64,000 nt of DNA from Ornithinimicrobium pekingense DSM 21552 (GTDB taxonomy: Bacteria; Actinomycetota; Actinomycetes; Actinomycetales; Dermatophilaceae), in NCBI RefSeq assembly GCF_000421185.1, contig NZ_ATWJ01000012.1, forward strand, positions 1-64,000. The letters run 5' to 3'. Each line of letters starts with the position of its first letter. Within the stretch, counting starts at the first letter, position 1. Both the position numbers and the translations under genes were made by a program. Shown here piece by piece: positions 20,321 through 49,972 of this stretch. A model generated the notes under the pieces. That model was given only the letters and a program-made list of their open reading frames with translations. It was not told where the DNA came from and ran no database searches.

Positions 20321-20364
20321 CGTCAACGTCAGGTCAAGCGCAGGTATGGGGAAGGTCAGCACAA
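20321..20364 (+). promoter_or_regulatory. 11-bp-phased operator A upstream of CocE-like gene
   Basis: Four units start every 11 bp: CGTCAAC (20321), GGTCAAG (20332), GGTATG (20343) and GGTCAGC (20354). The same block occurs upstream of three other plus-strand genes. Direct repeats with an 11-bp period starting GGTCA or GTTCA are the binding pattern of OmpR/PhoB-class regulators such as the Streptomyces PHO box. The regulator itself is not in the window. Confidence 0.6.
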
Positions 20365-20441
20365 CGTCCGGCCCGGGCAAACCGGGTAAAACCTTGCCAA
20401 AGACCCGCGGTTTGCCCTTCCGCCCGGACGGCACCGCTTCC

Positions 20442-20447
20442 TAGGGT
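20442..20447 (+). promoter_or_regulatory. -10 element for leaderless CocE-like gene
   Basis: TAGGGT with six nt before the ATG at 20454. There is no Shine-Dalgarno in the right place, so a leaderless message is likely. Confidence 0.45.
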
Positions 20448-20453
20448 CCCGAG

Positions 20454-22313
20454 ATGGACACCAACGCAAGGACGCGTCTGCGCCGCACGACCTTCATCCT
20501 GACCTGCTCCTCCGCGCTCGTGGTCAGCCCGCTGGCCGCCACGGCCGGGACCACCAGCTCGTCGCTGTCGTCGGTCATCGGCCCCGCCACCTCGGCTGTG
20601 ACTGCCGCCATCGAGGACGGCATCACCCACGACCAGAACCCCCGCGTGCCCGAGGGCGCGTCGTGGACGGAGCACTACTTCCCCTCCTCCGACGGCAGTG
20701 ACGTCGAGCTGCACGCCGACGTGCTGCGGCCCGCCCACCTGCCGGCCGACACCCCGACGCCGGTGATCCTGTCGGTCGGTCCCTACTTCGCGCACGCCGG
20801 CCAGACCGGTGACGACGGCTTCACCCAGACGGGCCCCTCCGAGCGGTTCAACGACCTCATCGAGGGCGCCGACCTGATGGCCCGCGGTTACACCGTGGTC
20901 TACGTCGACCTGCGGGGCTTCGGCGGCTCGACCGGGTGCCTCGACTGGGGCGGCCCCGGCGAGCAGGCCGACGTGGTCGCCGCGGTCGAGTGGTCGGCGA
21001 ACCAGCCCTGGTCGACCGGCAAGGTCGGCCTCTACGGCAAGTCCTACGACGGCGTCACCGGGCTGATCGGCGCCAACGAGGAGCCGGAGGGTCTTGCCGC
21101 CGTCGTCTCCCAGGAGCCGCTGTGGGACATGTACAACTACCTCTTCTCCAACGGCGTCCGCCGGCCCAACCACCTCGGCACCCCTTACGCCTACAACTCG
21201 ATCGCCAGCGTCCAGGGCATGCCGGACGACACCGACCGCTACAAGACCAACGCCGCCTACGAGCAGACCCACCCCGAGTGCCTCGCCGACAACGTGACCG
21301 ACACCCAGGACCCGGACCCCGACTCCGACTACTGGCAGGCCCGCGACCTGGCCGCCATGGCCGCCGGGTCGACCGTGCCGCTCTTCGTCACCCAGGGCTT
21401 CCTCGAGCCCAACACCAAGCCCGAGGACATGCAGCAGTACCTCGACAACCACGACGGCGAGCAGCGCGGCTGGCTCGGCCCGTTCGAGCACGTGCGCGGC
21501 AACGACCGCGGCTCCGACGGGGTCCTGCGGATGGGCCGCGAGGGCTGGTTCGAGGAGGTCATGCGCTTCTACGACGAGCACCTGCAGGGCATCGAGCCGT
21601 CCGTCGACGACCCGGCCTTCGTGATCCAGGACAACTTCGGCCAGTGGCGTGCGCAGGACACCTGGCCGGTGGTCACCACGACCCAGACCGTCCGCCTGGA
21701 GCCCGGCAGCTACGTCGACGACGGCGGTGAGGAGGTCGCCGGCCAGGGTCCCGCGGACGACGGTGACCACGACATGGAGCACGGCCCGACGCTGCCGCCG
21801 CAGGCCCAGGGCCGGCCCGGCAAGCCGCCCCGCGTGACCGACGACGGCGACACCTTCTACACCTGGTCGCGCCCGGTCAACCACGAGACCCGGATCACCG
21901 GCACCCCTCGGGTGGCCTTCGAGGCCACCGGCACCGGCAACGTGCTGGTCCGGACCTGGGACGTCGCCCCCGACGGCACGGCGGTGATGTTCGACGAGCA
22001 GATGTCGCTGGTGGACGACGGCACGGTCGCGTTCGACCTCAAGGACACCGACTGGACCCTCGAGGCCGGCCACCAGCTCGTCGTGGGCATCGGCACCAAC
22101 ACCACGCGGTCGTGGCGCGACACCCCCTCCGCCGAGACGATCACGGTCTCCTCGCCCACCCTGTCGCTGCAGCTGCAGAACACCCGCAACGACGTCCCCA
22201 CGCACGGTGACCGGGCTCCCTACCTGGACACCTACCTGCGCTTCTACACCGGCACGATGGAGGACCGGATGCAGGGCACCTTCAGCCTGTCGGTCAACCA
22301 GGGCCGCGGCTGA
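20454..22313 (+). CDS. Secreted CocE/NonD family alpha/beta hydrolase (X-Pro peptidase-like)
   Basis: A 619-residue secreted enzyme. A basic N-terminus and hydrophobic core form a signal peptide ending around residue 31 (PLAATAG). The alpha/beta-hydrolase domain follows: VDLRGFGGSTG at 151-161, nucleophile S197 in GKSYDG, and a histidine in the PFEHVRGN segment around residue 346. The last 180 residues form the jelly-roll typical of the X-Pro dipeptidyl-peptidase/cocaine esterase class. Substrates in the family are acyl-proline peptides or esters; the actual substrate is unknown. It lies alone behind operator A, divergent from the ECF42 operon. Confidence 0.88.
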   Translation: MDTNARTRLRRTTFILTCSSALVVSPLAATAGTTSSSLSSVIGPATSAVTAAIEDGITHDQNPRVPEGASWTEHYFPSSDGSDVELHADVLRPAHLPADTPTPVILSVGPYFAHAGQTGDDGFTQTGPSERFNDLIEGADLMARGYTVVYVDLRGFGGSTGCLDWGGPGEQADVVAAVEWSANQPWSTGKVGLYGKSYDGVTGLIGANEEPEGLAAVVSQEPLWDMYNYLFSNGVRRPNHLGTPYAYNSIASVQGMPDDTDRYKTNAAYEQTHPECLADNVTDTQDPDPDSDYWQARDLAAMAAGSTVPLFVTQGFLEPNTKPEDMQQYLDNHDGEQRGWLGPFEHVRGNDRGSDGVLRMGREGWFEEVMRFYDEHLQGIEPSVDDPAFVIQDNFGQWRAQDTWPVVTTTQTVRLEPGSYVDDGGEEVAGQGPADDGDHDMEHGPTLPPQAQGRPGKPPRVTDDGDTFYTWSRPVNHETRITGTPRVAFEATGTGNVLVRTWDVAPDGTAVMFDEQMSLVDDGTVAFDLKDTDWTLEAGHQLVVGIGTNTTRSWRDTPSAETITVSSPTLSLQLQNTRNDVPTHGDRAPYLDTYLRFYTGTMEDRMQGTFSLSVNQGRG

Positions 22314-22328
22314 GCACGACCTGGATCT

Positions 22329-22748
22329 TCACGGGCCGAGCGGGCCGATCAGCTCGTAGACGGTGCCGTCCGGGCCGCGGTAGTGCGCCCAGGCGTGCTG
22401 CTCGTCCCGCTGGGTGTCCCAGAGGAACCGCACGCCCTCCGCCTCCATCCGCCGGCGGGTCCCCTCGACGTCGTCCACGCGCAGACCGACGCAGGGGCGC
22501 TCGCCGAAGGCCAGGTGGTCGGTGTCCTCAGGCCCGTACACGTGCAGCGCCGTCCCGTCCGCGAGACGGAACCAGGCGAGCCGGTCGGGCTCGAGCCGGA
22601 CCGGCTGCAGGCCGAGGACGTCGCGGTAGAGGGCGACCGTCGACCGGAACGCGGCGCGGTCGCCGACCCGCACGCCGAGGAAACCCAGGCCCAGCACCTC
22701 ACCGGTGGACCTGCGGACGTCCTCGGGTCCGCCCTGGCGTGACGTCAT
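22329..22748 (-). CDS. VOC family (glyoxalase-like) protein
   Basis: A 139-residue protein with the two beta-alpha-beta-beta-beta halves of the vicinal oxygen chelate fold: LGFLGVRVGD...YRDVLGLQPVRLEPDRLAWFRLADGTALHVYG and PCVGLRVDDVEGTRRRMEAEGVRF...YRGPDGTVYELIG, each given here in part. A metal ligand Glu is in the last strand (YELIG). Substrate unknown. The ATG overlaps the stop of the upstream DUF1801 gene by 4 nt, so the two are co-translated. Confidence 0.85.
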   Translation of the reverse strand: MTSRQGGPEDVRRSTGEVLGLGFLGVRVGDRAAFRSTVALYRDVLGLQPVRLEPDRLAWFRLADGTALHVYGPEDTDHLAFGERPCVGLRVDDVEGTRRRMEAEGVRFLWDTQRDEQHAWAHYRGPDGTVYELIGPLGP

Positions 22749-23170
22749 ACCGTGGCGCCCGGCAACCTGCTGGCCTGCTCGACCCAGGACCGCAGCTGGT
22801 CGAGGTCGAGCTCGTCGTCCTCGTGGATGTCCAGATAGCGCACCTCGGCGTGCTTGGACGACTTTGGCGGCACGGGGTCGAGCGAGGCGCCCTGCCAGAA
22901 CTGCACCTGCACGTACGACGTGTAGCAGCGGAACGACAGGAACCAGGTGCCCTCGTGCGCTCCGTAGAACGGCTGGTTCCACTTCACCGCCTTGCGCACG
23001 TCCGTGACCGTGCTCGTGACGAGGTCGTCCAGGCGGCGGCCGACCTCGCTCTTCCACCCGGGCATGGCCGCGATGTAGTCCTGCACCGGCCCGTCGCCCT
23101 CCCCCTTGGGGATCTGCGGGTTGCCGCCGGAGAGCAGCCTGGGGGCCGCACCGTCGTTCTTCTCACCCAT
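22745..23170 (-). CDS. DUF1801 domain protein
   Basis: A 141-residue protein with the DUF1801/YdhG fold: VQDYIAAMPGW, then a helix, AVKWNQPFYG, FLSFRCYTSYVQVQFWQG and KHAEVRYLDIHEDDELD. The family is related to the frataxin-like YdhG fold and has no proven function; some members are linked to iron handling. The first gene of a two-gene operon with the VOC protein, and divergent from the GH3 gene. Confidence 0.85.
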   Translation of the reverse strand: MGEKNDGAAPRLLSGGNPQIPKGEGDGPVQDYIAAMPGWKSEVGRRLDDLVTSTVTDVRKAVKWNQPFYGAHEGTWFLSFRCYTSYVQVQFWQGASLDPVPPKSSKHAEVRYLDIHEDDELDLDQLRSWVEQASRLPGATV

Positions 23171-23262
23171 CAGAGCCTCCCTCTCTCGGTCATGGGGCGG
23201 CCATCGCCGCCCACCTTCGGCCCGATCGAGCCTACCCACCCGCTGCTCCCACGGGCCCGGTT

Positions 23263-23306
23263 CGTCACCGTTCGGTCAAGGGCAGGTATGCAGTTGGTCA
23301 AGACTT
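23263..23306 (+). promoter_or_regulatory. 11-bp-phased operator B upstream of GH3 gene
   Basis: Four units start every 11 bp: CGTCACC (23263), GGTCAAG (23274), GGTATG (23285) and GGTCAAG (23296). It has the best agreement of the four copies. A possible -10, TAGCGT, is at 23372-23377. Same reading direction as the gene it precedes. Confidence 0.65.
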
Positions 23307-23428: not shown

Positions 23429-26017
23429 ATGACACCGAAGTCACCCAGACGCTCCGCCGCCGCGGCGCTGGCCCTGACGCTGGGCGCCGGGGCCGCGGCC
23501 GCCCTGCCCCCGGCCGCAACGGCCGCGACCGACGAGCAGCCCACGCTCGAGGCCCGCGTCAAGGACGTCATCGACCACGACGGCCTGCAGTTCAAGGACC
23601 TCAACGCCAACGACGAGGTCGACCCCTACGAGGACTGGCGCCTGCCCGTCGAGGAGCGGGTCGCCGACCTCGTCGGCCAGATGACGCTGGCGGAGAAGTC
23701 CGGCCTCATGCTCATCCAGACGCTCAACGCCGGCTGCGAGGGCAGCGTCGTCGGCCAGGCCGCCAACTTCGTCGAGCAGCAGCACATGCACCGCTTCATC
23801 TTCCGCAACGTCGTCGACTCCACCTCGACCGCGTGCGGCGCGAGCGGCACCCCGGTGGTCACCCCCGCCCAGGCGGCGACCTTCACCAACTCCGTGCAGG
23901 AGATGACCGAGGCGACGCGTCTCGGCATACCGACGCTGTTCAAGTCCAACGCCCGCAACCACATCGACCACGACGCCCGCGTCGGCATCAACGAGTCCGC
24001 CGGCGCGTTCAGCGCCTTCCCCAAGGAGGCCGGCGTGGCCTCGGCCGCCCTCGGCGACGCGGCCTACATGGACGTCGTGGAGGACTTCGCCACCGTGATG
24101 GGCGACGAGTGGGCCTCGATCGGCCTGCGGGGCATGTACGGCTACATGGCCGACCTGTCCACCGACCCGCGCTGGTACCGCGTGCACGAGACCTTTACCG
24201 AGGACTCCGACCTCGGCGCCGACATCATGGGCCAGCTGGTGCGCATCCTGCAGGGCGAGGTCGACGAGGACGGCGTCTCGCTGTCCCCGGACACCGACGT
24301 CGCGCTGACGATGAAGCACTTCCCCGGCGGCGGGCCGCAGGCCCTCGGCCTGGACCCGCACTACGCGCACGGCAAGACCCAGGTCTACCCCGGCGACGGC
24401 TTCGTGGACGCGCTCAAGCCGTTCGAGACCGCCATCGACGCCGGCGTGTCCTCGATCATGCCCTACTACGGCGCCCCCATCGACGTGGTCTACGAAGGCA
24501 CCCCCTTCGAGGAGATCGGCTTCGCCTTCTCCGAGGAGATCGTCGAGTGGCTGCTGCGCGACCAGCTCGGCTTCAAGGGCTACGTCAACTCCGACACCGG
24601 CATCATCAACGACCGCGCCTGGGGCCTGGAGGACGCGACCGTGCCCGAGCGGGTGGCCGCGGCCGTCAACGGCGGCACCGACACGCTCTCCGGCTTCGAC
24701 GACGTGCAGACGATCCTCGACCTGGTCGAGGCCGGCCTGATCACCGAGGAGCGGGTCGACCTGGCCGCGGAGCGGCTGCTCACCCCGCTGTTCCAGCTCG
24801 GCCTCTTCGAGGACCCCTACGTCGACCCCACCGCCGCGACCACGACCGTCGGCAACGACGCGCACCGCGCCGTCGCCCAGGACGTGCAGCGCAAGTCGGT
24901 CGTGCTCCTGCAGAACGACGGCGTCCTCCCGCTCGAGGGCGACGACGAGGTCTTCGTCCTCGGCGCCTTCAACAGCGAGCAGGTCGCCGAGGTCGGCTTC
25001 GACGTCGTCGACGGCAACGAGCAGGGTGTCGAGGCGGCGGCCGGCGCCGACGTGGCGGTCATCAACGTCACGGCGGCGACCGACCGCTCGGTCACCGGCG
25101 CCTACCGCTCCAACTTCGACGACACCGGCTGGTTCAACCCGGCGACGGGCGGGTTCGCCGCCGCGGACGACCCGAGCACCGACGCCGACTTCTACGTGGT
25201 CGGCGGCCTGGACCCGGACTACGGCACCAACCCGGTCGTCATGGACGGGGTCGCCGGCCTCGACGGCAGCAGCCCGTGGGGCGCCTCGGACCGGTGCGTC
25301 GCCGAGGGTGGCGAGGCCGCGGTCAACAACCCGAGCCCGACCCCGTCGTGCACCGACAACGGACTCCGCTTCGGCGGGGCGCTGCCCTGGGAGTCCGACG
25401 TCCTGGACTTCACGGGTATGGCGCAGTCGCAGTCGTGGAAGGTCACCCCGTCGCTGGAGGACATCCAGGCGGTCATGGGCGAGGTCGGCGCGGAGAACAC
25501 CGTGCTCAGCGTCTACTTCCGCCAGCCCTACGTCCTCGACGAGGCCAGCGGCCTGCAGGACGCCGGCGCGATCGTCGCGGGCTTCGGCGTGACCGACTCC
25601 GCGCTGTGGGACGTCCTGGCCGGTGACTTCGCGCCGCAGGGCAAGATGCCCTTCGCCCTGGCGAGCAACGTCGAGGCCGTCTCCACCCAGGCGCCGGACC
25701 TGCCCGGGTATGACGCGGCCGACACGCTCTTCCCCTTCGGCCACGGCCTGACCTACGCCGACCCCTTCGAGACGCTGTCCTCGAGCCTGGAGGGCCACAT
25801 CGCCTCCGGCGACGTCGCCGGCCCGGTGGCCAAGCAGCTGACGAAGGCGCTCGAGCAGGCCAAGAAGCACGCCGACGTGGGCCGCAGCCAGCCAGCGGCC
25901 GTCGCGCTGGAGCGCTTCCTGGCCCTGCTGGAGAAGCCGAAGAAGCCGGACACGCTGACCCCGGAGGCGCAGGAGGACCTGCGCACCCAGGCCCAGCACC
26001 TGCTCCGCCGGCTCTGA
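23429..26017 (+). CDS. Secreted glycoside hydrolase family 3 beta-glycosidase
   Basis: An 862-residue secreted enzyme. A signal peptide with Ala-rich core ends near residue 32 (PAATAAT). The GH3 N-terminal TIM barrel covers about 60-470: GQMTLAEKSGLM, MKHFPGGG (Lys-His of the substrate site), and nucleophile D389 in YVNSDTGIIND. The C-terminal sandwich follows, with KSVVLLQNDGVLPL, and ends near 790; the last 70 residues are an extra charged helix. The family cleaves terminal beta-glucosyl, xylosyl or GlcNAc residues; the specificity here is open. GAGGAG lies 8 nt before the ATG at 23429. A strong hairpin follows the stop. Confidence 0.9.
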   Translation: MTPKSPRRSAAAALALTLGAGAAAALPPAATAATDEQPTLEARVKDVIDHDGLQFKDLNANDEVDPYEDWRLPVEERVADLVGQMTLAEKSGLMLIQTLNAGCEGSVVGQAANFVEQQHMHRFIFRNVVDSTSTACGASGTPVVTPAQAATFTNSVQEMTEATRLGIPTLFKSNARNHIDHDARVGINESAGAFSAFPKEAGVASAALGDAAYMDVVEDFATVMGDEWASIGLRGMYGYMADLSTDPRWYRVHETFTEDSDLGADIMGQLVRILQGEVDEDGVSLSPDTDVALTMKHFPGGGPQALGLDPHYAHGKTQVYPGDGFVDALKPFETAIDAGVSSIMPYYGAPIDVVYEGTPFEEIGFAFSEEIVEWLLRDQLGFKGYVNSDTGIINDRAWGLEDATVPERVAAAVNGGTDTLSGFDDVQTILDLVEAGLITEERVDLAAERLLTPLFQLGLFEDPYVDPTAATTTVGNDAHRAVAQDVQRKSVVLLQNDGVLPLEGDDEVFVLGAFNSEQVAEVGFDVVDGNEQGVEAAAGADVAVINVTAATDRSVTGAYRSNFDDTGWFNPATGGFAAADDPSTDADFYVVGGLDPDYGTNPVVMDGVAGLDGSSPWGASDRCVAEGGEAAVNNPSPTPSCTDNGLRFGGALPWESDVLDFTGMAQSQSWKVTPSLEDIQAVMGEVGAENTVLSVYFRQPYVLDEASGLQDAGAIVAGFGVTDSALWDVLAGDFAPQGKMPFALASNVEAVSTQAPDLPGYDAADTLFPFGHGLTYADPFETLSSSLEGHIASGDVAGPVAKQLTKALEQAKKHADVGRSQPAAVALERFLALLEKPKKPDTLTPEAQEDLRTQAQHLLRRL

Positions 26018-26289: not shown

Positions 26290-27426
26290 CTACTCCCCCC
26301 GCGGGTCGCCGACGAAGTCGCCGCGCTCGCGGATGTTCTCGATCGGCGACAGGTCGGCCGTCTCCCACGAGCCGTCGGCGACCGCCTTGAGCAGCTCGTA
26401 GCCGGTGACGCTGGCGGTCTTGGAGATGTAGCCGGCCGACTTCTGGCCGATGCCGCCGCGCAGCTCGAAGAGCACCGAGGCAGACCCGAGCAGGCCGTAG
26501 GCGTTGCGGGCGATGCCCGGCGTCTCGGTGCTGGGGTAGCGCGTGATGTTGGCGTAGCCGTAGCCGTCGACCGCCTGCAGCATCACCGACGCCGCCCGCT
26601 GGGACTCGGTGATCGTCTGCGCGAACTCGTCGGAGATCCCGAGCTCGGCCGCGGTGTCGGTCGCGTTGGGCCACATGATCGAGCCGGTGATCATCCGCCC
26701 GTCGTCGTCGACGTAGGTGCCCTGGTGGTGGTAGTCGACCATGACGACCGGCTGCAGGTCGTCCCAGAGCAGGCGCATCGCGATGGCCTCGGGCACCTCG
26801 TTGAGGGTGTCCTCACCCTCGGCGTAGGGGTTGTCGTAGGCCGACTCGGCGTAGGAGTGGTAGCGGTTGATGTCGTAGCCGCGGCCGGACAGCCAGAAGT
26901 CGCACCCCACCACGCAGGTCGGGTCGACGTTCTGGCGCCACGGGGTCGTGGCGCCCCGGGAGTCGGTCGCCTCGCCGTCGAAGCCGTCGACGTTGACGCG
27001 GGGCACGATGGTGACCGTTAGGGCGTCGCGGATGGCCCGCGTCTCGGGGTTGTTGCTGCCGGCGACCTGCTGGATCAGGTCCATCATCCCGCGGCTGACC
27101 ATGAACTCGTTGCCGTGCTGGTTGGCGATGAGCATCACCGGGGTGGGCCCGTCGCCGATCGTCACCACGGGGATCTCGCGGCCCAGGTTGGTGGGCAACG
27201 GGGCCGGCTCGAGCTGGATGGCTCCGCGGTTCTCCAGCTTCTGCAGGGTGGCCCACATGTCCTCGTAGGAGGCCACCCCGTTCAGGGCGCTCTCCTCACC
27301 CCAGGGACCTCCGGGGGTGGTCTCGGGCGGGTCGGCCTGGGCCGCGCCGACCTGGGTGCCGGCGACCACCGCCCCGGCCAGCACGAGAGAGCTCAGAGAG
27401 GCGAAAACTCGACGTCGTGATCTCAT
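26290..27426 (-). CDS. Secreted M14 family zinc carboxypeptidase
   Basis: A 378-residue secreted peptidase. Signal peptide residues 1-31 (MRSRRR then a hydrophobic core ending AAQA). The zinc ligands are the H-x-x-E pair in NQHGNEF near 105 and the His in VDYHHQG near 220; the catalytic Glu lies in LFELRGG near 320. Substrate-binding GYDINRYH is present. The length fits carboxypeptidase-like M14 enzymes lacking a propeptide. Starts at ATG 27426. It is divergent from the lipoprotein gene, so operator C lies in its upstream region too, though that element is oriented the other way. Confidence 0.9.
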   Translation of the reverse strand: MRSRRRVFASLSSLVLAGAVVAGTQVGAAQADPPETTPGGPWGEESALNGVASYEDMWATLQKLENRGAIQLEPAPLPTNLGREIPVVTIGDGPTPVMLIANQHGNEFMVSRGMMDLIQQVAGSNNPETRAIRDALTVTIVPRVNVDGFDGEATDSRGATTPWRQNVDPTCVVGCDFWLSGRGYDINRYHSYAESAYDNPYAEGEDTLNEVPEAIAMRLLWDDLQPVVMVDYHHQGTYVDDDGRMITGSIMWPNATDTAAELGISDEFAQTITESQRAASVMLQAVDGYGYANITRYPSTETPGIARNAYGLLGSASVLFELRGGIGQKSAGYISKTASVTGYELLKAVADGSWETADLSPIENIRERGDFVGDPRGE

Positions 27427-27503
27427 GTCCACGCTTTCGGGTCGTGCCGGCGTGACCCTGGTGGCCACGCTCGTTGTGGCCCTCGTCACGCTAGGCCGGA
27501 CCC

Positions 27504-27536
27504 GGTCAAGACGGGGTATGGCGCAGGTCAAGACTT
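27504..27536 (+). promoter_or_regulatory. 11-bp-phased operator C upstream of lipoprotein gene
   Basis: Three units start every 11 bp: GGTCAAG (27504), GGTATG (27515) and GGTCAAG (27526). No fourth unit. A possible -10, TAGCGT at 27547-27552, lies 21 bp after the start of the last unit, closer than at the other copies. Lies between the divergent M14 peptidase and lipoprotein genes. Confidence 0.62.
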
Positions 27537-27633: not shown

Positions 27634-28134
27634 ATGAAGAACCGCGCGCTCGTGGTCGCGATCGCACTCGCCCTGCCGCTGTCGCTCGCCGCCTGCGGCA
27701 ACGACGACGAGGCCCAGGCCGCGGAGGCGATCTCGGCCTCGATGATGGAGCAGGAGGAGGACTCCTTCGCCGTCGACCAAGAGCAGGCGGACTGCGTCGG
27801 CGAGGGGCTGGTCGAGACAGTCGGCGTCGAGCAGCTGCAGGGCTACGGGATGCTCACCGACGACCTGCAGGTCGACGAGTCCGTGGACGAGGTGACGATG
27901 TCGGCAGAGGACGCCGACGCCTCCGCCGAGGTCTTCGTCGGGTGCGTCGACGCCCAGACGATGTTCGCCGAGGAGATCGCCGCCGACGAGGAGCTCACCG
28001 CCGAGCAGCAGGAGTGCATCGGGGAGGTCATGGACGAGGAGGCCCTCACCGAGCTGTTCTCGATGATGTTCCAGGGCAAGGAGGACGAGGCCATGGAGGA
28101 CCTCATGGGTCCGCTCATGGCCTGTCTGTTCTGA
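27634..28134 (+). CDS. Acidic secreted lipoprotein
   Basis: A 166-residue lipoprotein. The signal peptide ends in a lipobox, LAAC, at residues 17-20, then GND. The mature part is very acidic (many Asp/Glu) and has four Cys besides the lipid Cys, at about residues 53, 107, 128 and 165, that could form two disulfides. The C-terminus repeats a C-x(2-3)-(M/V)-DEEAL-like helix. I do not recognise the family; it could be an adhesin or a binding lipoprotein. Operator C lies in its promoter. Confidence 0.7.
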   Translation: MKNRALVVAIALALPLSLAACGNDDEAQAAEAISASMMEQEEDSFAVDQEQADCVGEGLVETVGVEQLQGYGMLTDDLQVDESVDEVTMSAEDADASAEVFVGCVDAQTMFAEEIAADEELTAEQQECIGEVMDEEALTELFSMMFQGKEDEAMEDLMGPLMACLF

Positions 28135-28160: not shown

Positions 28161-28637
28161 TCACACGGGCAGGACCACGACCCCGTCGTCGTCGCTGACC
28201 AGCTGGGCGCCGGGGGTGAAGGTCGCGCCGCCGAAGGACACGACCACGTCGCGCTCCCCCGCCCCGGTCTTGGCGCTCTTGCGCGGGTTGGACCCGAGGG
28301 CCTTGACCCCGAGGTCCAGCTCGGCCAGCGCGGCGACGTCACGCACGGCCCCGTGGATGACCACGCCGGCCCAGCCGTTGGACACCGCCGAGGCGGCGAT
28401 GAGGTCGCCCATCAGCGCGGTGTGCAGCGAGCCGCCACCGTCGACCACCAGGACGCGCCCCTCGCCGGGGGTGGCGAGGGTCGCCTTGACCAGGGCGTTG
28501 TCCTCCCGGCAGCGGACGGTCGCGATCGGACCGGCGAAGACGCGCCGGCCGCCGTACTGCCGCAGCTGCAGGTCGCAGGACTCGAGGCGCTCCTCATACT
28601 CGTCGTACAGGTCCGCGGTCCCGATCGCCGCGCTCAT
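28161..28637 (-). CDS. RraA family protein (HMG/CHA aldolase-like)
   Basis: A 158-residue protein of the RraA fold. The family's G-D-(L/N)-A core ([21 protein letters not shown]) and the AVRD motif are present; in aldolase members the Asp/Arg of this region bind metal and substrate. Members act as 4-hydroxy-4-methyl-2-oxoglutarate / oxaloacetate aldolase-decarboxylases or RNase E inhibitors. Actinomycetes often lack a typical RNase E partner, and its place as last gene of a tricarboxylate-transporter operon favours carboxylate metabolism. Its ATG overlaps the stop of the Usp gene by 4 nt. A second RraA gene lies at 58739-59344. Confidence 0.85.
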
Positions 28638-29035
28638 GCGGCACCCCCGGGCTTGACCGCGAGCACCGGGCAGGTGGCCTCGAGCAGGATGCGCTGGGAG
28701 TTGGACCCCAGGATGAGCTTGCCGACCGGCGAGCGCCGCCGCAGGCCGATGACGATGAGGTCGGCGCGGTGCTCGTCGGCCGCGGCCAGCACCTCGTCGG
28801 CTGCCGAGCGACCGCGCGAGGGCTGGACAACCAGGTGCTCCACGCCGGCTCCGCTGAGCTGCTCCTCGGCGGAGCCCAGCTGCTCCTCCGACAGCAGGCG
28901 CGGGTCGCCCGCGGCCTCGCCGCGGGAGGAGTTGACGACGACGAGCAAGGCGTCGTCCTTGCGGGCCTGGGCGATGGCGTGCTGGAGGGCGGCCTGGCCC
29001 TCCGGGGTCGGGATGTAGCCGACGAGGATAGTCAT
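28634..29035 (-). CDS. Universal stress protein (UspA-like)
   Basis: A 133-residue single-domain Usp. The nucleotide-binding motif G-2x-G-9x-G-S/N is visible in the [17 protein letters not shown] segment, with the closing CPVLAVKP strand. It binds ATP in related proteins. The ATG overlaps the upstream TctA stop by 4 nt and its stop overlaps RraA, so it is translated with the transporter. Usp proteins commonly accompany TctA/TctB permeases and may sense energy state for the transporter. Confidence 0.88.
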
Positions 29036-30627
29036 GTCTGCTCCGTGTGTGAGGGCGTGCTCTGGTCGTGGTCTGCGCGGGTCCGGCCGGTCTGGCCCGG
29101 CGTGCGGGGGCCGGGGGTCTGGTCGTCCGCGTCGCGGCCGGAGCCCCGGGCGCCACGCACCGCCCTGGCGAGGAAGGGCCACAGCAGGATGACCGCGATG
29201 ATCACGTAGGTGCCGATCGCGATGGGCTCGTTGAACAGCCCGGTCGGGCTGCCGGACGACAGCTGCAGCGCCTGACGCAGCTGGCGCTCGGCGAGCGGGC
29301 CGATGATCGCGCCGATGATCAGGGGCAGGACGGGCAGGCCGTACCTGCGCATCATGAAGCCCAGGAGCCCCAGCACCATCAGCAGCAGCAGGTCGAACCA
29401 CTGCAGGTTGACCGAGTAGGCGCCGAGCGTCGCGAAGAAGAGGATGCCGGCGTAGAGGTAGGGGCGCGGCAGCTGCAGCAGCTTGGCCCACGCCGGCGCC
29501 AGCGGCAGGTTGATCAGCAGCAGGAGGGTGTTGCCGATGAAGAGCGAGGCGATCAGACCCCAGACCAGCTGCGGCTCGCGCTCCAGCAGGAGCGGCCCGG
29601 GCTGGATGCCGAACTGGATGAAGGCGGCCAGCATCACCGCGGCGGTGGCGTTCGTCGGCAGGCCCAGGGCCAGCATCGGCACGAGCGTGCCGGCGGCCGA
29701 GGCGTTGTTGGCCGCCTCCGGGCCCGCCACGCCCTCGATGGCGCCGTGGCCGAACTCCTCGGGCTTCTTGGTCAGGCGCTTCTCGGTCACGTAGGACAGG
29801 AAGGTCGGGATCTCCGCGCCGCCCGCGGGCAGGGCGCCGAACGGGAAGCCGTATGCCGTGCCGCGCAGCCAGGGCTTCCACGACCGGCCCCAGTCCTCGC
29901 GCGACATCCAGGGCCGACCGACGGGGATGACCGCGGCGGAGGAGCGCTTGAGGTGGGCAGCCACCCACAGCGCCTCGCCGACGGCGAAGATCGCCACCGC
30001 GATGACGACGATGTCGATGCCGTCCACGAGCTGGATCTCGCCGAACGTCAGCCGGCTCTGGCCGGTGACCGGGTCGAGCCCGATAAGACCGATCGCCAGG
30101 CCGAGCGCCAGGGCCGAGAAGCCGCGCACCCGCGAGCTGCCCAGCACCGCGGTGACCGCGATGAGCGAGAGCAGCATGATCGCCAGATAGCTGGGGGCTC
30201 CGAGCGAGATCGCGAAGCGCACGACGACGGGGGCGAAGAAGGCGAGCAGGGCGGTGCCGATCGTGCCGGCGACGAACGAGCCGATGGCCGCGGTGGCCAG
30301 GGCCTGCGCGGCGCGCCCGGCCTTGGCCATCTTGTGACCCTCGATGGCGGTGACGACCGTGGACGACTCGCCCGGGGTGTTGAGCAGGATCGAGGTGGTG
30401 GACCCGCCATACATCCCGCCGTAGTAGATGCCGGCGAACATGATGAACGCGCTCGTCGGCTCCAGCGCGAAGGTGACGGGCAGCAGCAGCGCCACCGTCA
30501 TGGCCGGGCCGAGACCCGGCAGCACCCCGACAGCGGTGCCCAGCAGCACGCCGATGCAGGCGTAGAGCAGGTTGACCGGGGTGGCCGCGGTGGCGAAGCC
30601 CTGGCCCAGGGCGTCGAGGACCTCCAT
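29032..30627 (-). CDS. tctA: Tripartite tricarboxylate transporter large permease TctA
   Basis: A 531-residue integral membrane protein with about 12 hydrophobic segments. The family hallmarks are at the N-terminus ([20 protein letters not shown]) and in the [18 protein letters not shown] segment, with [15 protein letters not shown] near the middle repeat. It forms the cotransport channel with TctB and takes substrate from periplasmic-type TctC. In Salmonella the TctCBA system imports citrate; other members import other carboxylates. It is one nt from tctB and overlaps the Usp gene. Confidence 0.93.
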
Positions 30628-31173
30628 CTAGAGCACTCCTTCGAGCAGGCCGGCGGGCAGCGGGATGCCCAGGCCCAGGTAGAACCCGTAGAAGCTGCCC
30701 ACGGCCAGCAGCACGGAGATGACCAGGTCGCGCACGTAGTGCCGGCTGCCCAGGGCCACCACGGACCCGAAGAACAGCAGGGTGCCGGAGATCACCCAGC
30801 CCAGGGTGTCCACGAGCGCGATGTTGGCGGCGAAGACCGCGAGCAGCGGCACCACGGTGCGCCAGTCGGTCGGGTGGCTCAGGTCCACGTCCTCGCCGCC
30901 CTCGGCCTCCCCGTGCCCGCCGCGGAGGACGTCGACGGCGAGGAACACCGCGCACACGACCAGCAGGCCGGCGACGATGTAGGGGACGGTCCGGGGCCCG
31001 ACCGGGTCGGACTGGGAGTAGGGGGCGTTGAGGCCGACCGCGTCGACGAGGACCAGCACGCCCAGGGCGGCCAGGAGCCCGGCGACGAGCAGCTCCGAGC
31101 GGCCGGACAGCCGGCCCGGACGGGCCGGCGCCGGGGCGCCGGTCCCGCCCGTGGTGCCGTGTGCGGTGCTCAT
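30628..31173 (-). CDS. tctB: Tripartite tricarboxylate transporter small permease TctB
   Basis: A 181-residue membrane protein with four hydrophobic segments (about residues 28-47, 64-82, 112-135 and 150-175), the usual TctB topology. The N-terminal cytoplasmic tail is Gly/Pro-rich. Its ATG overlaps the tctC stop by 4 nt, and its stop is directly followed by the tctA start. Confidence 0.88.
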   Translation of the reverse strand: MSTAHGTTGGTGAPAPARPGRLSGRSELLVAGLLAALGVLVLVDAVGLNAPYSQSDPVGPRTVPYIVAGLLVVCAVFLAVDVLRGGHGEAEGGEDVDLSHPTDWRTVVPLLAVFAANIALVDTLGWVISGTLLFFGSVVALGSRHYVRDLVISVLLAVGSFYGFYLGLGIPLPAGLLEGVL

Positions 31174-32192
31174 CCCAGCCCGAGCTCCGTCAGCACGTTC
31201 GCCACCCGCTCGTCCTGCTCGGTGAGGAACTCGGCGTAGTCGTCGCCGGTGACGAAGGCGTCGGTCCACCCGTTGGTCTCCAGCGCCTCCTCCCACTCCG
31301 GGGTGGAGTGCATCTGCTCCAGGGCCGCGATCCAGGCGTCGCGGTCGGCGTCCTCGATGCCGGGAGGGGCGACGATGCCGCGCCAGTTGGTGAAGACGAG
31401 GTCGATGTCGGACTCGGTCAGGGTCGGGGCGTCGATGCCCTCGACGGGCTCCTCGGAGGAGACGGCGAGGACGCGGATCTCCCCGGTCTCGATCTGGTCC
31501 TTGAACTCGCCGGCGCCGGAGGTGGCGAAGTCGAGCTTGGAACCCAGGATCGCCGGGAGCAGGTCGCCGCCGCCGTCGTAGGAGACGAAGTTGACCTCGG
31601 TGGCGTCGATGCCGACCGCCTGCGCGAGCTGCATCGGCAGGAGGTGGTCAGGACCGCCGGGGTTGGAGCCGCCGCCGACGGACAGGCCGCCCGGGTCCTT
31701 CTTCCAGGCCTCGACGAGGTCGTCGATGGTCTCGAACTCGGAGTCGGCCGGCACCATGATCGCGCCCGGCTCCTCGATGAGCTTGGCGAGCGGGGTGGTC
31801 TCGGTCAGGGTGGCCTCGGAGTCGTTGGTGTAGCTGGCGCCGACGACGCCCAGCCCCATGAGCATGGCCAGGTCGGCGTTGCCCTCCTCCGAGACGAGGC
31901 GGGCCAGGCCGACGGTGCCGCCGGCGCCCTCGAGGTTGAAGACCTCCAGGCCGGAGGAGATGCCGGTCTCCTCCATCACCTGCGCGGCGGTGCGGGCGGT
32001 CTGGTCGTAGCCGCCACCGGCTGAGTTGGGCACCATGATGCGCTTGTCGGTCAGCGGCTGCGCCTCCGCGGAGCCGGTCCTGCCACCCCCGTCGGCCGGG
32101 GTGCCGGAGTCGGAGCCGGTCACGCCGCACGCCGAGAGGGCGAGCGCGGCACCGGCGAGGGCGGCGGAGATGCGGAAGGTCGAGCGGGTCAT
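31170..32192 (-). CDS. tctC: Tripartite tricarboxylate transporter substrate-binding lipoprotein TctC
   Basis: A 340-residue solute-binding protein. The signal sequence ends in a lipobox, LSACG (Cys at residue 22), so it is a lipoprotein as expected in a Gram-positive. The mature protein has the TctC/Bug features: VPNSAGGGYDQTAR near 55, GGTVGLARLV near 110, and GGGSNPGGPDHLL near 175. It delivers an organic carboxylate to TctAB. First gene of the operon; a 219-bp gap separates it from the divergent two-component system that likely controls it. Confidence 0.93.
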   Translation of the reverse strand: MTRSTFRISAALAGAALALSACGVTGSDSGTPADGGGRTGSAEAQPLTDKRIMVPNSAGGGYDQTARTAAQVMEETGISSGLEVFNLEGAGGTVGLARLVSEEGNADLAMLMGLGVVGASYTNDSEATLTETTPLAKLIEEPGAIMVPADSEFETIDDLVEAWKKDPGGLSVGGGSNPGGPDHLLPMQLAQAVGIDATEVNFVSYDGGGDLLPAILGSKLDFATSGAGEFKDQIETGEIRVLAVSSEEPVEGIDAPTLTESDIDLVFTNWRGIVAPPGIEDADRDAWIAALEQMHSTPEWEEALETNGWTDAFVTGDDYAEFLTEQDERVANVLTELGLG

Positions 32193-32411: not shown

Positions 32412-34004
32412 GTGGGACGAGGGCGTATGACGCTCGCCGGCCAGTTCCTCCTCCTGCAGCTGGTCATCGTGGCGCTGGTGGTCACCACGGTCGGCGTCCT
32501 GTCCTTCGCCCAGACCGGTGAGCAGATCCAGCGGACCGAGAGCCGCCGTGCGCTCTCGGCGGCGGAGAACCTGGCCGGCAACCCGACCGTCCGCTCCCTG
32601 CTCCCGACCGCGGTGCCGGGTGGTAGCGCCTCGCTGGCCGCCGTGGGCGAGACGGTGCGCACCGTGTCCGGCTCCGACGTCGCCGCGCTCCTGCGGCCCA
32701 ACCGCACGGTGGTCGGCTCTTCGCGACCCAGCGACGTCGGTGCGACCCTGGCCGACGACCGGACGGCGCTGCCCTCCTCCCGGTCCTGGTCCGGCGCCCT
32801 GGCGGACCGGCCCACGGTGGCGGCCGAGGTGCCGGTCCTCGACGACGAGGGGACCCTGGTCGGGATCGCGCGGATCGAGCGCGACCTGCCCGCCGTGGCC
32901 GAGCGGCTCTCCCTGGCCGGACGCGGCCTGCTCGTCTACGTGGGGCTGGCGACGATCATCGGGGTCATCGGCTCGACCATGCTCGCCCGCCGCGTGAAGC
33001 GGCAGACCCTCGGGCTGGAGCCGACCGAGATCGCCGGGCTGGTGGAGCACCGCGAGGCGATGCTGCACGGCATACGCGAAGGGGTCCTCGCCCTCGACCC
33101 GACCGGGCGGGTGACGCTGATGAACGACGCAGGCCGGCGCCTGCTCGGGCTCCCCCCGGACGCCGTGGGCCGTCCGCTGGAGGAGCTCACCGACGACCCG
33201 GAGCTGCGTGAGGCGCTGACCGAGGGGTCGACGCGCGACCGGCTGCTGGTGGTGGGTCCGCGACTGCTGGTGCTCAACCGGATGCCGGTGCGTTCGCACG
33301 GGGCGGTGATCGGGTCGGTGACCACGATGCGGGACCGCACCGAGATGAAGGCGCTCGAGCGCGCCCTGGACACCTCGCGGCGCACGACCGGCACGCTGCG
33401 CGCGCAGACCCACGAGTTCAGCAACCAGCTGCACACGATCTCCGGCCTGCTCCAGCTCGAGGAGTATGACGAGGCTGTGCACTTCGTCGAGGGCATCAGC
33501 CGTCACCGCGACACCCTCTACACCCACATCACCGCGCGGGTGTCGGACCCGCCGGTCGCGGCCCTGCTGATCGCCAAGGACTCCCTGGCCAGCGAGCGGG
33601 GCGCCCAGCTTGTCGTGACCGAGGACTCGCGCCTGGCCCGGGTGGACGACGAGCTGTCCCGCGACCTGGTCACCGTGGTCGGCAACCTGGTGGACAACGC
33701 GCTCGACGCGCTGGCGGACGCGCCGGAGAAGCGTGTCGAGGTCTCGCTCACCGACGACGAGCAGGCGGTGACCGTGCGGGTGCACGACTCCGGGCCGGGG
33801 GTGAGCGAGCAGACGGCCGCCGACCTCTTCCGGTCCGGGTACACCACCAAGGCCTCCGGCGCCGTCGGCGGGCACGGTTTCGGGCTGGCGATGGTGCGGC
33901 TGGTCTGCCGCCGGCGCGGCGGGGACGTGACGGTGCACAACAAGGACGGCGCCGTGTTCGTCGCCCGGCTGCTCAAGAAGGACAAGGAGGTCGTGGCGAC
34001 GTGA
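32412..34004 (+). CDS. DcuS/CitA-type sensor histidine kinase
   Basis: A 530-residue kinase. One TM helix at about 10-30, an extracytoplasmic PDC/Cache sensor domain about 31-170, a second TM about 176-196, a PAS domain (MLHGIREGVLALDPTGRVTLMNDAG) near 217-300, then the family's own phosphoacceptor segment with H334 in THEFSNQLH, N box NLVDNALDAL, and G boxes DSGPGVSE and GHGFGLAM. This is the citrate/C4-dicarboxylate sensor family, matching the divergent tricarboxylate transporter. The GTG at 32412 has GGAGG upstream. Its stop overlaps the response regulator start by 4 nt. Confidence 0.92.
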   Translation: MGRGRMTLAGQFLLLQLVIVALVVTTVGVLSFAQTGEQIQRTESRRALSAAENLAGNPTVRSLLPTAVPGGSASLAAVGETVRTVSGSDVAALLRPNRTVVGSSRPSDVGATLADDRTALPSSRSWSGALADRPTVAAEVPVLDDEGTLVGIARIERDLPAVAERLSLAGRGLLVYVGLATIIGVIGSTMLARRVKRQTLGLEPTEIAGLVEHREAMLHGIREGVLALDPTGRVTLMNDAGRRLLGLPPDAVGRPLEELTDDPELREALTEGSTRDRLLVVGPRLLVLNRMPVRSHGAVIGSVTTMRDRTEMKALERALDTSRRTTGTLRAQTHEFSNQLHTISGLLQLEEYDEAVHFVEGISRHRDTLYTHITARVSDPPVAALLIAKDSLASERGAQLVVTEDSRLARVDDELSRDLVTVVGNLVDNALDALADAPEKRVEVSLTDDEQAVTVRVHDSGPGVSEQTAADLFRSGYTTKASGAVGGHGFGLAMVRLVCRRRGGDVTVHNKDGAVFVARLLKKDKEVVAT

Positions 34005-34678
34005 TCGGTGTCCTGATCGTCGACGACGACTACATGGTGGCCCGGATCCACGAGGGCTTCGTGCGCCGGTGCGACGGCTTCGAGGTGGTCGGCACCGCGC
34101 ACGACCCGCAGGCCGCGCTGGAGGCGGCCGCGCGCCTGCAGCCGGACCTGGTGCTGCTCGACGTCTTCCTGCCCGGGGCCTCCGGGCTGGACATCATCGC
34201 CGGCCTGCGGGAGGCCGCACCGGACATGGACGTCATCGTGGTGACGGCCGCCCGGGAGGCCGACACGGTCAAGCGCGCGGTGCGCGGCGGGGCGGTGCAG
34301 TACCTCATGAAGCCGTTCAGCCAGGCCGACCTGCAGGAGCGGCTCGAGCACTACCGACGCACGCACCGTGCGCTCGCCCCGGGTGTGACGCCCGAGCAGA
34401 ACGACGTCGACCGGCTCTTCGCCACGCCCCGTCACACGCAGGCGGCGCTGCCCAAGGGCCTGAGCCCGGAGACCCTGCAGCTCGTGCTCCAGGTGCTGTC
34501 GGAGGCCGGCGGTGACCTGTCCGCGGCGGAGACGGCCGAAACGGCCGGGATCTCGCGGGTCAGCGCCCGTCGCTACCTGGAGCACCTGGCCACCACCGGC
34601 CGGGCCGAGGTCCGGCTGCGTTACGGCGAGGTCGGCCGGCCCGAGCGGCGCTACAGCGCCGGCCCGCCTACGCGGTGA
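34001..34678 (+). CDS. DcuR/CitB-type response regulator
   Basis: A 225-residue regulator with GTG start overlapping the kinase stop (GTGA). Receiver domain: D9, D10, phospho-acceptor D54 (LLDVFLPG), and the T/S and K of VVTAA and LMKPF. The C-terminal DNA-binding domain has a helix-turn-helix (LSAAETAETAGISRVSARRYLEHL), as in CitB/DcuR regulators. The likely target is the tct operon promoter. The last 11 nt overlap the convergent oxidoreductase gene. Confidence 0.92.
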   Translation: MIGVLIVDDDYMVARIHEGFVRRCDGFEVVGTAHDPQAALEAAARLQPDLVLLDVFLPGASGLDIIAGLREAAPDMDVIVVTAAREADTVKRAVRGGAVQYLMKPFSQADLQERLEHYRRTHRALAPGVTPEQNDVDRLFATPRHTQAALPKGLSPETLQLVLQVLSEAGGDLSAAETAETAGISRVSARRYLEHLATTGRAEVRLRYGEVGRPERRYSAGPPTR

Positions 34679-47642: not shown

Positions 47643-47786
47643 ATGTTCGGTCTGCCCGCGACGACGACGGCCATCATGGTCGGCGTATTGGGTTTCTGGG
47701 TGGTCTACACCCTCGTCTTCTACTTCACCACCGGCGGCTGGTCGGTCGAGGACGTGGACAAGGACACCGGCGAGGTGACCCGATGA
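47643..47786 (+). CDS. Tiny membrane partner of second SSS symporter
   Basis: A 47-residue protein with one hydrophobic helix (about 8-29), FGLP before the helix and a charged tail (EDVDKDTGEVT). The FGLP-helix arrangement matches the second helix of the DUF3311 protein at 36409-36654, so this could be a minimal form of that partner. AGAGGAG precedes the ATG, and its stop overlaps the symporter ATG by 4 nt. Confidence 0.75.
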   Translation: MFGLPATTTAIMVGVLGFWVVYTLVFYFTTGGWSVEDVDKDTGEVTR

Positions 47787-49327
47787 GCATCGAGCTGGTG
47801 TTCCTCGTCCTCTACTTCGCGGCCATGCTCGGCATCGGTGTCTGGGCCGCCCGCCGCAAGAGCGCGACGACCGAGGGCTTCCTGCTCGCCGACCGCAGCC
47901 TGGGCCCGGCGGTGACCGCCCTGCGGCTGCAGAGCTCCTCGATGTCGGGCTACATGTTCCTCGGCGCCGGGTCCCTCGGTTACTCCCAGGGCTACTTCGG
48001 TATGTGGTACGCGCTCGGCGACGTGGGCGGCGGGGTGCTCAACCTGTCGATCCTCGGCCGCCGCATGCGCAAGCTGTCGGCGATGCTGGGCTCGATCACC
48101 TCGATCGGCTACCTGGAGCACCGCTACCCCTCCCCCTGGACCCGGGCGATCGCCGCGGCGGTCGCGCTTTTCTGCATGTTCTTCTACGTCCTGGCCCAGT
48201 TCCTGGCCGGCGGCCAGGGCCTGGCGATGGTCACCGGGCTGTCCGTCGACGTCTCGATGATCATCGCGGTGAGCGTCATCATCGGCTACACCTTCCTCGG
48301 CGGCTACCTCGCCGTCGCCTACACCGACTTCGTCCAGGCCATCGTCATGGTCATCGGGATGCTGTGGATCCTGGTCGCCACCCTGCAGTACGTCGGCGGT
48401 CTCACCGCCGGCCACGAGCAGCTCGCGGCCGTCGACGCGGACCTGCTGACCATGTGGGGCGTCGACCAGCAGTACCTCGGCGAGTGGGGCGTGATCATCG
48501 GCGCGGTGCTGATCTTCTCCATCGGCTACATGGGCTGGCCGCACGTCAACGTCAGCCACATGGCGATGCGCCAGCCGTCCGTGGCCCGCCGGGCCGGTCT
48601 CTACGCGACGGGGTTCAACCTCGCCTTCATCCCGGCGGCCTACCTGATCGGCATGATGGCCCTGGTCATCGTCCCCAACCTGGACAACCCCGAGCTGGCC
48701 ATCTTCGAGGTCGCCGCGACCGTCCTGCCCTCCTTCGCGCTGGGCATCGTCATGGCGGCGATCATGGCCGCCATCATGTCGACCGCCGACGCCCTCCTCC
48801 TCCAGGCCGGGACCATCGCCTCCCACGACCTGTGGGGCCGGTTCCGCAAGGGGGCGGTCGACGAGCGCAGCTCGGTCAACGTCTCCCGCATCACCGTGTT
48901 GGTGCTGGGCGTCATCGGCGTGGTCCTGGCGATCACCGAGCCGCCCGGTGTGTTCAGCATCGTCGTCTTCGCGACCAGCGTGCTGGGCGCCGCGTTCGTC
49001 CCGGTCTACGTGTGCGCGGTGTGGTGGAAGAAGGCGAACACCCCCGGGGCCCTGGCCTCGATCGTCGTGGGCACCGTCGCCGCCGTCACCGCGCAGCTGA
49101 CCGGGTCCAGCGACAGCATCGGCTTCGACCCGATGGGCATCGGCATCACCTGCTCGGTGATCGCGATCGTCGTGGTCTCCCTGCTCACCCAGCGCTCCTC
49201 ACCGGTGCCCGAGCACGTGCTCGTCGCGGTGGAGGAGGCTGCCCGGGTGCGCCCGGTCCCGGCCCGCCTCGCCGCCGGCGAGGACCCGACCCTGGCCTCC
49301 CAGCTGCCCGACCTCGACCGCCGGTGA
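47783..49327 (+). CDS. Sodium:solute symporter (SSS family), second copy
   Basis: A 514-residue transporter with about 13 hydrophobic segments. Features include FAAMLGIGVWAARRK, SSSMSGYMFLGAGSLGYSQGYFG, and AAIMAAIMSTADALLLQAGTI (in part). By its ASTADALLL-type helix it is nearer to the proline/pantothenate branch than the first copy. Its stop overlaps the GTG of the next gene. Controlled most likely by the divergent PucR gene. Confidence 0.92.
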   Translation: MSIELVFLVLYFAAMLGIGVWAARRKSATTEGFLLADRSLGPAVTALRLQSSSMSGYMFLGAGSLGYSQGYFGMWYALGDVGGGVLNLSILGRRMRKLSAMLGSITSIGYLEHRYPSPWTRAIAAAVALFCMFFYVLAQFLAGGQGLAMVTGLSVDVSMIIAVSVIIGYTFLGGYLAVAYTDFVQAIVMVIGMLWILVATLQYVGGLTAGHEQLAAVDADLLTMWGVDQQYLGEWGVIIGAVLIFSIGYMGWPHVNVSHMAMRQPSVARRAGLYATGFNLAFIPAAYLIGMMALVIVPNLDNPELAIFEVAATVLPSFALGIVMAAIMAAIMSTADALLLQAGTIASHDLWGRFRKGAVDERSSVNVSRITVLVLGVIGVVLAITEPPGVFSIVVFATSVLGAAFVPVYVCAVWWKKANTPGALASIVVGTVAAVTAQLTGSSDSIGFDPMGIGITCSVIAIVVVSLLTQRSSPVPEHVLVAVEEAARVRPVPARLAAGEDPTLASQLPDLDRR

Positions 49328-49905
49328 CCGCCGTCCGGAGCGGGCACGGCACGGACCTGGTCTGGCCCGCTGTCGTGCCCGCCGAGGCCGCGGTCCGCAC
49401 CGTCGCCCGACGGCTGCCCCCGGGCGCGCAGCTGTCGGCCCGCCTCTACCACCACCCCTTCGCAGGTATGGCGTTCCTCTGCGGCACGGACACGCGGCGG
49501 TCGCGGTGGCTCGCTCCGGCGCGGCCGCTGCTGGCCTCGGTGCTGGTCGACCTCGTCAGCGGGCGCGCCTTCCTGACGGACCCGTGGGACGCCGACGAGC
49601 TGACGACCCGCGCCGCTGCACTCAGCGCGTCGTCGGGCGATGCGCTCTGGAGCGAGGCCGCCCCGGTCCTGCGCGACCCCGCGCCGAGGGTGACCGAGGA
49701 CGAGGCGGTCGCAGCCGGTCACGCCCTGCTGCCCGGGCTGCTGGCGCGCCGCCGCCGGCTCGACCTGCTCGAGCGCGCCGAGCTGACGCAGACGCCGGTC
49801 CGCTTCGGCAAGCCCAACTGGTGGGTCACGGGCCGGTCGGGCGAGCGCACGGTCGAGGTCGTGGTCGACGCGCTGAGCGGACGGCACTACGTCCGGTCGG
49901 CCTGA
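49324..49905 (+). CDS. Uncharacterised protein translationally coupled to SSS symporter
   Basis: A 193-residue soluble protein, GTG start overlapping the symporter stop (GTGA). It has a possible beta-rich N-terminal half (LSARLYHHPFAGMAFLCGTD) and a helical middle, and ends in a strand-rich segment (KPNWWVTGRSGERTVEVVVDALSGRHYV, partial). No motif I can assign. The coupling says that it is made with the transporter and may process or sense its substrate. Confidence 0.7.
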   Translation: MTAVRSGHGTDLVWPAVVPAEAAVRTVARRLPPGAQLSARLYHHPFAGMAFLCGTDTRRSRWLAPARPLLASVLVDLVSGRAFLTDPWDADELTTRAAALSASSGDALWSEAAPVLRDPAPRVTEDEAVAAGHALLPGLLARRRRLDLLERAELTQTPVRFGKPNWWVTGRSGERTVEVVVDALSGRHYVRSA

Positions 49906-49928
49906 GCTCCCCCGCTTCCCGGCCCCCC

Positions 49929-49972
49929 GGTCACGGGTGGGTATGGAGATGGTCAAGATTTGGTCTAGACCC
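49929..49972 (+). promoter_or_regulatory. 11-bp-phased operator D upstream of whiB gene
   Basis: Four units start every 11 bp: GGTCACG (49929), GGTATG (49940), GGTCAAG (49951) and GGTCTAG (49962). GGGTAACCC follows at 49975. A possible -10, TACTGA, is at 50009-50014. It is the fourth copy of the element and the only one with the extra unit on the downstream side. Confidence 0.62.

Follow-up and report, generated by a model that had tools for sequence, protein, structure and literature searches.

What do four arrays of short direct repeats do in the genome of an actinobacterium, which genes would they serve and what kind of protein might read them? The question is raised by a 64,000-nt stretch of Ornithinimicrobium pekingense DSM 21552 (contig NZ_ATWJ01000012.1, positions 1 to 64,000; here called the window). 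A first-pass annotation of this DNA had described four intergenic blocks of GGTCAAG- and GGTATG-type units beginning at exactly 11-bp intervals, and had proposed a shared regulon linking secreted hydrolases with a WhiB-like (Wbl) regulator. Judging from sequence, we consider it fairly probable that the arrays are operators of a single regulator whose DNA-binding domain is a winged helix of the OmpR type, and that an array would replace the −35 element where a −10 box lies 10 bp away.

Four phased arrays in the window

All four arrays described by the annotation were found, with unit starts at 20332/20343/20354 (site 1), 23274/23285/23296 (site 2), 27504/27515/27526 (site 3) and 49929/49940/49951 (site 4). 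The extra in-phase unit that it had reported at three of the four is present as well, at 20321 and 23263 (CGTCA) and at 49962 (GGTCT). A search of the window with the pattern GGTMWNG-N4-GGTATG-N5-GGTCA, allowing up to two mismatches, gave four matches, none of which had a mismatch; 100 shuffled sequences gave 0.01 on average. Triplets of GGT[CA][AT] units occurred five times at 11-bp spacing and not once at spacings of 7–10 or 12–15 bp. The half pattern GGTATG-N5-GGTCA with two mismatches was not above chance (15 matches in the window versus 11.2 expected); the significance therefore lies in the full three-unit array.

The genome-wide scan suggested in the annotation gave a rate well away from chance: five exact strict sites and one with a single mismatch in the 3.85 Mb of the genome (15 contigs), and none for the reversed-pattern control. 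Four of these six sites fall inside 30 kb of the window. Sites 1, 2 and 3 are intergenic and lie between divergent genes. A chance motif or a motif of coding sequence is disfavoured by the shuffles, the reversed-pattern controls and the intergenic placement.

Polarity and distance to the −10 box

Read on the opposite strand, the array takes the form [CTTGACC-N4]n. In relatives a reversed TAgCGT stands at a constant distance from the GGT units, and the opposite-strand reading becomes CTTGACC-N4-CYTGACC-N4-GCATACC-N4-CTTGACC followed by ten bases and then TARCGT. A pattern that included the TARCGT-type box had 13 matches, 11 of them exact, in 10 of 31 genomes of the genus; its control had one.

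The distance was examined in 60 arrays of three to eight units, from 59 loci selected without regard to a −10 box and likely to include some chance arrays. The hexamer TA[AG][CG][AG]T occurs at offset 10 in 20 of the 60 and at none of 44 other offsets. The looser TANNNT is found at offset 10 in 23 arrays and at any other offset in at most three; two arrays have it at offset 20 and three (L020, L130, L134) at 21, one unit further. The longest array has eight units and lies at an M36 protease gene (L055, genome G008), with 10 bp between its last unit and TAGGGT. At WhiB-like genes of genomes G001 and G022 (L143, L144) the same distance separates an array from TACGAT or TACCAT. The arrays thus show two features expected of operators of an OmpR-type DNA-binding regulator: motifs of 7 bp that follow each other head to tail with spacers of 4 bp, and a −10 box at constant distance from the last unit (offset 10, 20 of 60).

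The 10-bp rule gives the arrays a polarity, and site 3 was therefore assigned to the leftward gene of an M14 carboxypeptidase. The annotation had placed all arrays in the orientation of the gene that they precede. The GGT strand is indeed the strand of the right-hand gene; the polarity by the 10-bp rule is that of the opposite strand, and site 3 had been misread. The annotation's list of downstream genes (CocE, GH3, lipoprotein, whiB) is confirmed on the right-hand side, the divergent M14 gene to the left of site 3 having been omitted.

We infer binding, activation and the class of regulator as follows. The regulator would most likely be a two-component response regulator, with subunits bound head to tail, one per 11-bp unit and on the same face of DNA, in the sense CTTGACC-N4-(CTTGACC or GCATACC)-N4-CTTGACC. 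Where exactly 10 bp separate the last unit from a TA(G/A)CGT-like box, the −35 element would be replaced by the array, and RNA polymerase would be recruited by the regulator. Site 3 is predicted to act in this manner on the secreted M14 carboxypeptidase gene. Arrays that are inverted or further upstream, as sites 1, 2 and 4 are with respect to CocE, GH3 and whiB, probably act at a distance on the promoters of these genes, or else on the divergent genes.

At four loci (L125, L126, L131 and L133, positions ~4630–5000) the TAGCGT array promoter points leftward into a gap of ~230–390 bp without a called gene; beyond the gap lies a carboxyltransferase-like gene of opposite strand, its 3′ end facing the promoter. 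This gap may hold a small RNA or a peptide.

Distribution in the genus and neighbouring genes

The annotation had asked whether the phased arrays are kept in relatives and whether they lie mostly between genes, and both proved to be so. A relaxed pattern, which asks for three GGT[AC][AT] units in 11-bp phase (overlapping matches counted apart), gave 68 matches in 21 of the 31 congeners, against 2 for the control. Closer genomes (19) hold 65 of these matches and more distant ones (12) the other three; the split into subclades was made on identity of the PhoP orthologue (at least 88% versus at most 85%) and is not a tree. Among 50 merged arrays (from 53 fetched loci) 46 are intergenic. The four inside called genes are L061, L326, L128, where an over-long call of ligB is probably the reason, and L057, where the array overlaps a hydrolase gene at its end.

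The strict pattern was present in 8 of 186 genomes of the family, seven in the genus and one among the 155 others. A scan of 84,980 species genomes, from which records near the window's genome were possibly left out, gave eight stretches: one in O. cerasi, two in a metagenome-assembled genome (MAG) filed as Acidobacteria and five in unrelated organisms, the last figure being about chance level by our own estimate. Several one-mismatch matches were rejected as operators: one sequence is repeated in four genomes (L032, L045, L046 and L047), another in two (L024 and L036), and they look like conserved coding sequence. In a Pseudonocardia MAG (L320:1840-1895) four in-phase units, GGTCAAGGCTC GGTATGGACAC GGTCAAGGCCG GGTGTGGACAA, precede an aminotransferase-like gene; by their appearance they form a 22-bp repeat present twice.

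The strict site of O. cerasi (L318:4695-4760) lies within 59 bp, of which 58 are identical to the M14 promoter of the window. The shared segment extends slightly beyond the array at one end and beyond the −10 box at the other; no similarity is visible outside it. The gene behind it encodes a secreted protein of the S51 peptidase family in O. cerasi versus M14 in O. pekingense. Promoter copying is preferred over convergence for this cassette because the spacer bases are shared too. We tentatively suggest a young regulon, born in one subclade and perhaps spread in part by copying of the array + N10 + TAgCGT cassette before unrelated genes of secreted enzymes, in which array length (3 to 8 units) might tune the output; the modest weight given to this suggestion reflects that O. 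cerasi is a single case and not a pattern.

Target genes were assigned by Pfam matches of genes adjoining the arrays, the genes being called by our own caller based on GC content at third codon positions (GC3), which mis-set some starts. Peptidases recur: M14 in the window, on contig C1 of the same genome and in G012; M36 in the same genome, G008 and G018; S8 in the same genome and G020; M28 in G008, S15 in the window, S51 in O. cerasi and M3 in G005. Arrays also adjoin genes for GH3 (window), polysaccharide deacetylases with cell-wall-binding repeats (G001, G008) and an animal-type haem peroxidase with cell-wall-binding and RTX repeats (the same genome as the window). Other neighbours are genes for a PKD/malectin protein (G028), an LVIVD-repeat protein and a T2SSE ATPase (both G030), Fur and catalase (G008) and Flp pilin (G020), and an operon beside ligB that encodes a HisKA_3 kinase, a LuxR-type (NarL-type) regulator and a DUF4097 protein. 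A signal peptide was predicted for 28 of 74 genes facing an array and for 96 of 447 others (P 0.0025), by a home-made test with visible false calls both ways and with many ligB orthologues counted. No phosphate genes were seen among the array targets examined.

Arrays adjoin a WhiB-like gene in the window and also in G011, G001 and G022 (by Pfam for the window and G001, by a look at the sequence for G011 and G022), so the link between secreted hydrolases and a Wbl gene through a shared non-random operator, as the annotation had proposed, holds beyond the window. Secreted peptidases and envelope proteins would be prominent in the regulon, which would be confined to one subclade of the genus. 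The arrays thus appear as candidate binding sites of a real, clade-limited regulon of a known kind. A literature search, limited in scope and in the parts of the sources that it covered, gave no account of GGTCAAG repeats or of an Ornithinimicrobium regulon of this sort; earlier publication is possible.

Table 1. Arrays of the window and the genes that flank them (strand of an array, that of its CTTGACC reading)
Feature	Position	Strand	Remarks
ECF-type sigma factor with DUF6596	18642-19811		After YCII gene; divergent from CocE at site 1
YCII-domain protein	19808..20215	−	Left of site 1, then ECF-type sigma factor
Site 1	20321..20364	−	Four units, 11-bp spacing; + strand CGTCAACGTCA GGTCAAGCGCA GGTATGGGGAA GGTCAGCACAA; no −10 box at offset 10
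Secreted CocE-like hydrolase (Peptidase_S15, PepX_C)	20454..22313	+	Right of site 1
DUF1801 protein	22745..23170	−	Left of site 2
Site 2	23263..23306	−	Four units at 11 bp: CGTCA, GGTCAAG, GGTATG, GGTCAAG; offset 10 lacks a −10 box
Secreted GH3 glycosidase with FIMAH domain	23429..26017	+	Right of site 2
Secreted M14 zinc carboxypeptidase	26290..27426	−	PF00246, E 4.9e-15; proposed direct target of site 3
−10-like box TAGCGT	27488..27493	−	Exactly 10 bp past last unit of site 3, pointing left
Array-N10-box pattern match at site 3	27488-27517	−	
Site 3	27504..27536	−	Three units at 11 bp; then N10 + TAGCGT on minus strand
Lipoprotein, lipobox-like LAAC	27634..28134	+	Divergent from M14 gene; no Pfam match
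Site 4	49929..49972	−	Four units at 11 bp; + strand GGTCACG, GGTATG, GGTCAAG, GGTCTAG; no −10 box at offset 10
WhiB-family gene	50064..50348	+	PF02467, E 8.9e-26; right of site 4

Two of the neighbours in Table 1, the YCII protein and the ECF-type sigma factor (18642-20215), we take to be an ECF42-like pair. The WhiB-family protein is presumably WhiD/WhiB3-like (FFHPEGERG). Elsewhere in the window, an sCache/SpoOB-type kinase and a DpiA-like response regulator are encoded at 32427-34678; they adjoin a tripartite tricarboxylate transporter-like gene set (28161-32192, by a look at the sequence only).

Candidate regulators and their meaning

Comparisons with published operators draw on parts of the cited papers. 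The geometry of the arrays (7-bp motifs, 4-bp spacers, 11-bp phase) agrees with the OmpR/PhoB class named in the annotation. Direct repeats with units of 11 bp are bound by PhoB and by the PhoP of S. coelicolor (PMC4415409), and the PHO boxes of E. coli PhoB and Streptomyces PhoP (RegX3-type) are, like the arrays, head-to-tail direct repeats of 7 conserved and 4 loose bp; their core, however, is CTGTCAT or GTTCACC (PMC4415409), not CTTGACC/GCATACC. The idea that GGTCA is the Streptomyces PHO-box unit fails: on the promoter strand CTTGACC matches the S. coelicolor core GTTCACC at 5 of 7 positions only. MtrA, a RegX3-like or another OmpR-family regulator are left as candidates. In a typing of 20 stretches with regulators of five genomes, the one that we take to be RegX3-like occurs in G008, as do the candidates at L250 and L255.

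That the regulator is MtrA in particular, a special case of the preferred reading and one of the proteins named in the annotation, seems to us somewhat unlikely. The S. coelicolor MtrA sequence, (G/T)T(G/A)ACC-N5-GT(G/T)AC-N, is 11-bp phased and admits TTGACC in its left half (PMC5650626); the array agrees with this left half and with the right half in part, GCATACC being a poor fit there. MtrA boxes have two half-sites versus 3 to 8 units here, and the second half and the target set differ (PMC5650626). MtrA sites are reported in the whiD-bldM intergenic region of S. venezuelae, yet the half-sites of that species (T1 and C4 critical) match the array unit poorly (PMC13189361). The MtrA of the window's genome matches M. 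tuberculosis MtrA with E 3.9e-99, and orthologues at 84–99% identity occur in G008, G011, G003, G012 and also G010; G010 (84%), however, has no relaxed array, and no array was found before mtrA in the window's genome. The varying number of units (3 to 8) resembles the sites of BldC and would suit a regulator of a different fold, BldC-like or other, that oligomerises head to tail, since BldC binds direct repeats of varying number; its units are 9 bp long and AT-rich, AATTXXXX(C) (PMC5859096), as against 11-bp GC-rich units with a strict 10-bp rule here, which disfavours BldC itself and makes the wider alternative unlikely. CutR was also set aside: its published motif, TAWATAAA (PMC12802291), differs, and the part of PMC10433416 consulted gave no motif.

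The gene order array, N10, TAGGGT, M14, PhoP orthologue, kinase, seen in the window's genome, raises the possibility that this orthologue of M. tuberculosis PhoP (in 31 of 31 genomes; match to a PDB PhoP with E 5.2e-86) binds the arrays and regulates itself through them. The M. tuberculosis PhoP box, TCACAGC-N4-TCACAGC, resembles the arrays in its 7-bp motifs and in the 4-bp spacer that PhoP needs between heptamers, DNA with three or four motifs being bound better than DNA with two (PMC4832192). The array sequence differs and is not TCACAGC-like. A different 11-bp repeat, CTCCCAG-like (7+4+7 bp; L019:6200-6331), lies directly upstream of the orthologue; it is strict in 21 of 31 genomes (loci L019, L217-L246), is nearer to the published TCACAGC (PMC4832192) and is probably the autoregulatory site of the orthologue. 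Among the 31 neighbourhoods an M14-like gene directly upstream was found in the window's genome only, and the 700 bp upstream of the regulator showed no CTTGACC array, so that we hold this regulator very unlikely to be the binder. The distance of the CTCCCAG-like repeat to the start region of the orthologue is about that of the arrays, a point that we count in favour of an OmpR-type regulator.

Three further regulators were weighed. In the S. coelicolor afs box two 11-bp repeats are centred at −29.5, the upstream one at −40 to −30 (PMC10936776). With a −10 box at −12, the downstream repeat would begin 17 bp before that box, as in the arrays here. Response regulators can therefore not be told by geometry from SARPs, whose repeats also are 11 bp apart at a fixed distance from −10 (PMC10936776). 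A small SARP gene (L256, contig C1 of the window's genome, ~208.1 kb) has CTTTACG-N4-CTTTACC-N10-TAGCCC upstream, and a SARP-BTAD-nSTAND1 gene (L257:1350-1456, contig C8, ~221735-221772) has four in-phase units upstream, GGTAACA, GGTCGCG, GGTATCA and GGTATCA; these may be a site of the latter protein itself. The small SARP is disfavoured, with close orthologues in 3 of 31 genomes (G003 and G020 among them), and in array-rich G008 a search for small-SARP orthologues, made without a BTAD model, gave two weak matches only, GlnR and an OmpR-type regulator. A SARP/AfsR-type activator is thus scarcely likely. The NarL-type regulator beside ligB has an array-N10-TARCGT promoter before its kinase-regulator operon in several species; no orthologue was found in G014 (best 38%) or in G008 (best 37%), which is a single contig, 99% complete, with 11 relaxed matches. 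Because array-rich G008 lacks an orthologue, this regulator would be a target rather than the binder, a role that is highly improbable for it. GlnR, named as a candidate in the annotation, is present in the genome, and its boxes are 11-bp phased too, with half-sites GTnAC-N6-GaAAC. The arrays lack GAAAC, and separate boxes of the classic GlnR type are found upstream of amtB in the same genomes (L289-L316): GAAAC in 28 of 28 regions, phased nYnAC-N6-GAAAC in 22, GTTAC-N6-GAAAC in the window's genome and a weak CTTGACC-like array in only one. GlnR as the binder is extremely improbable.

Several points weigh against one OmpR-type regulator acting through the arrays. Among the 60 arrays, 37 lack TANNNT and 40 lack TA[AG][CG][AG]T at offset 10; in the window, three of the four lack a −10 box at that distance and run against the direction of the right-hand gene. 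No convincing CTTGACC array stands directly upstream of any of the 12 Trans_reg_C genes of the genome (nine response regulators or GlnR and three SARPs), the exceptions being the PhoP orthologue downstream of the array-controlled M14 gene and a weak array before the SARP-STAND gene. The arrays are confined to a subclade, while conservation of MtrA and of the PhoP orthologue reaches further.

If the arrays are operators of an OmpR-type regulator, they offer a sharp and testable operator grammar, 11-bp units and a 10-bp rule, by which secreted peptidases would be controlled in an actinobacterial genus that has received little study. This grammar predicts the transcribed strand from sequence and corrects a naive reading of orientation. 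With a regulon limited to a recent clade and one clear cassette common to different genes, the birth of a regulon could be followed.

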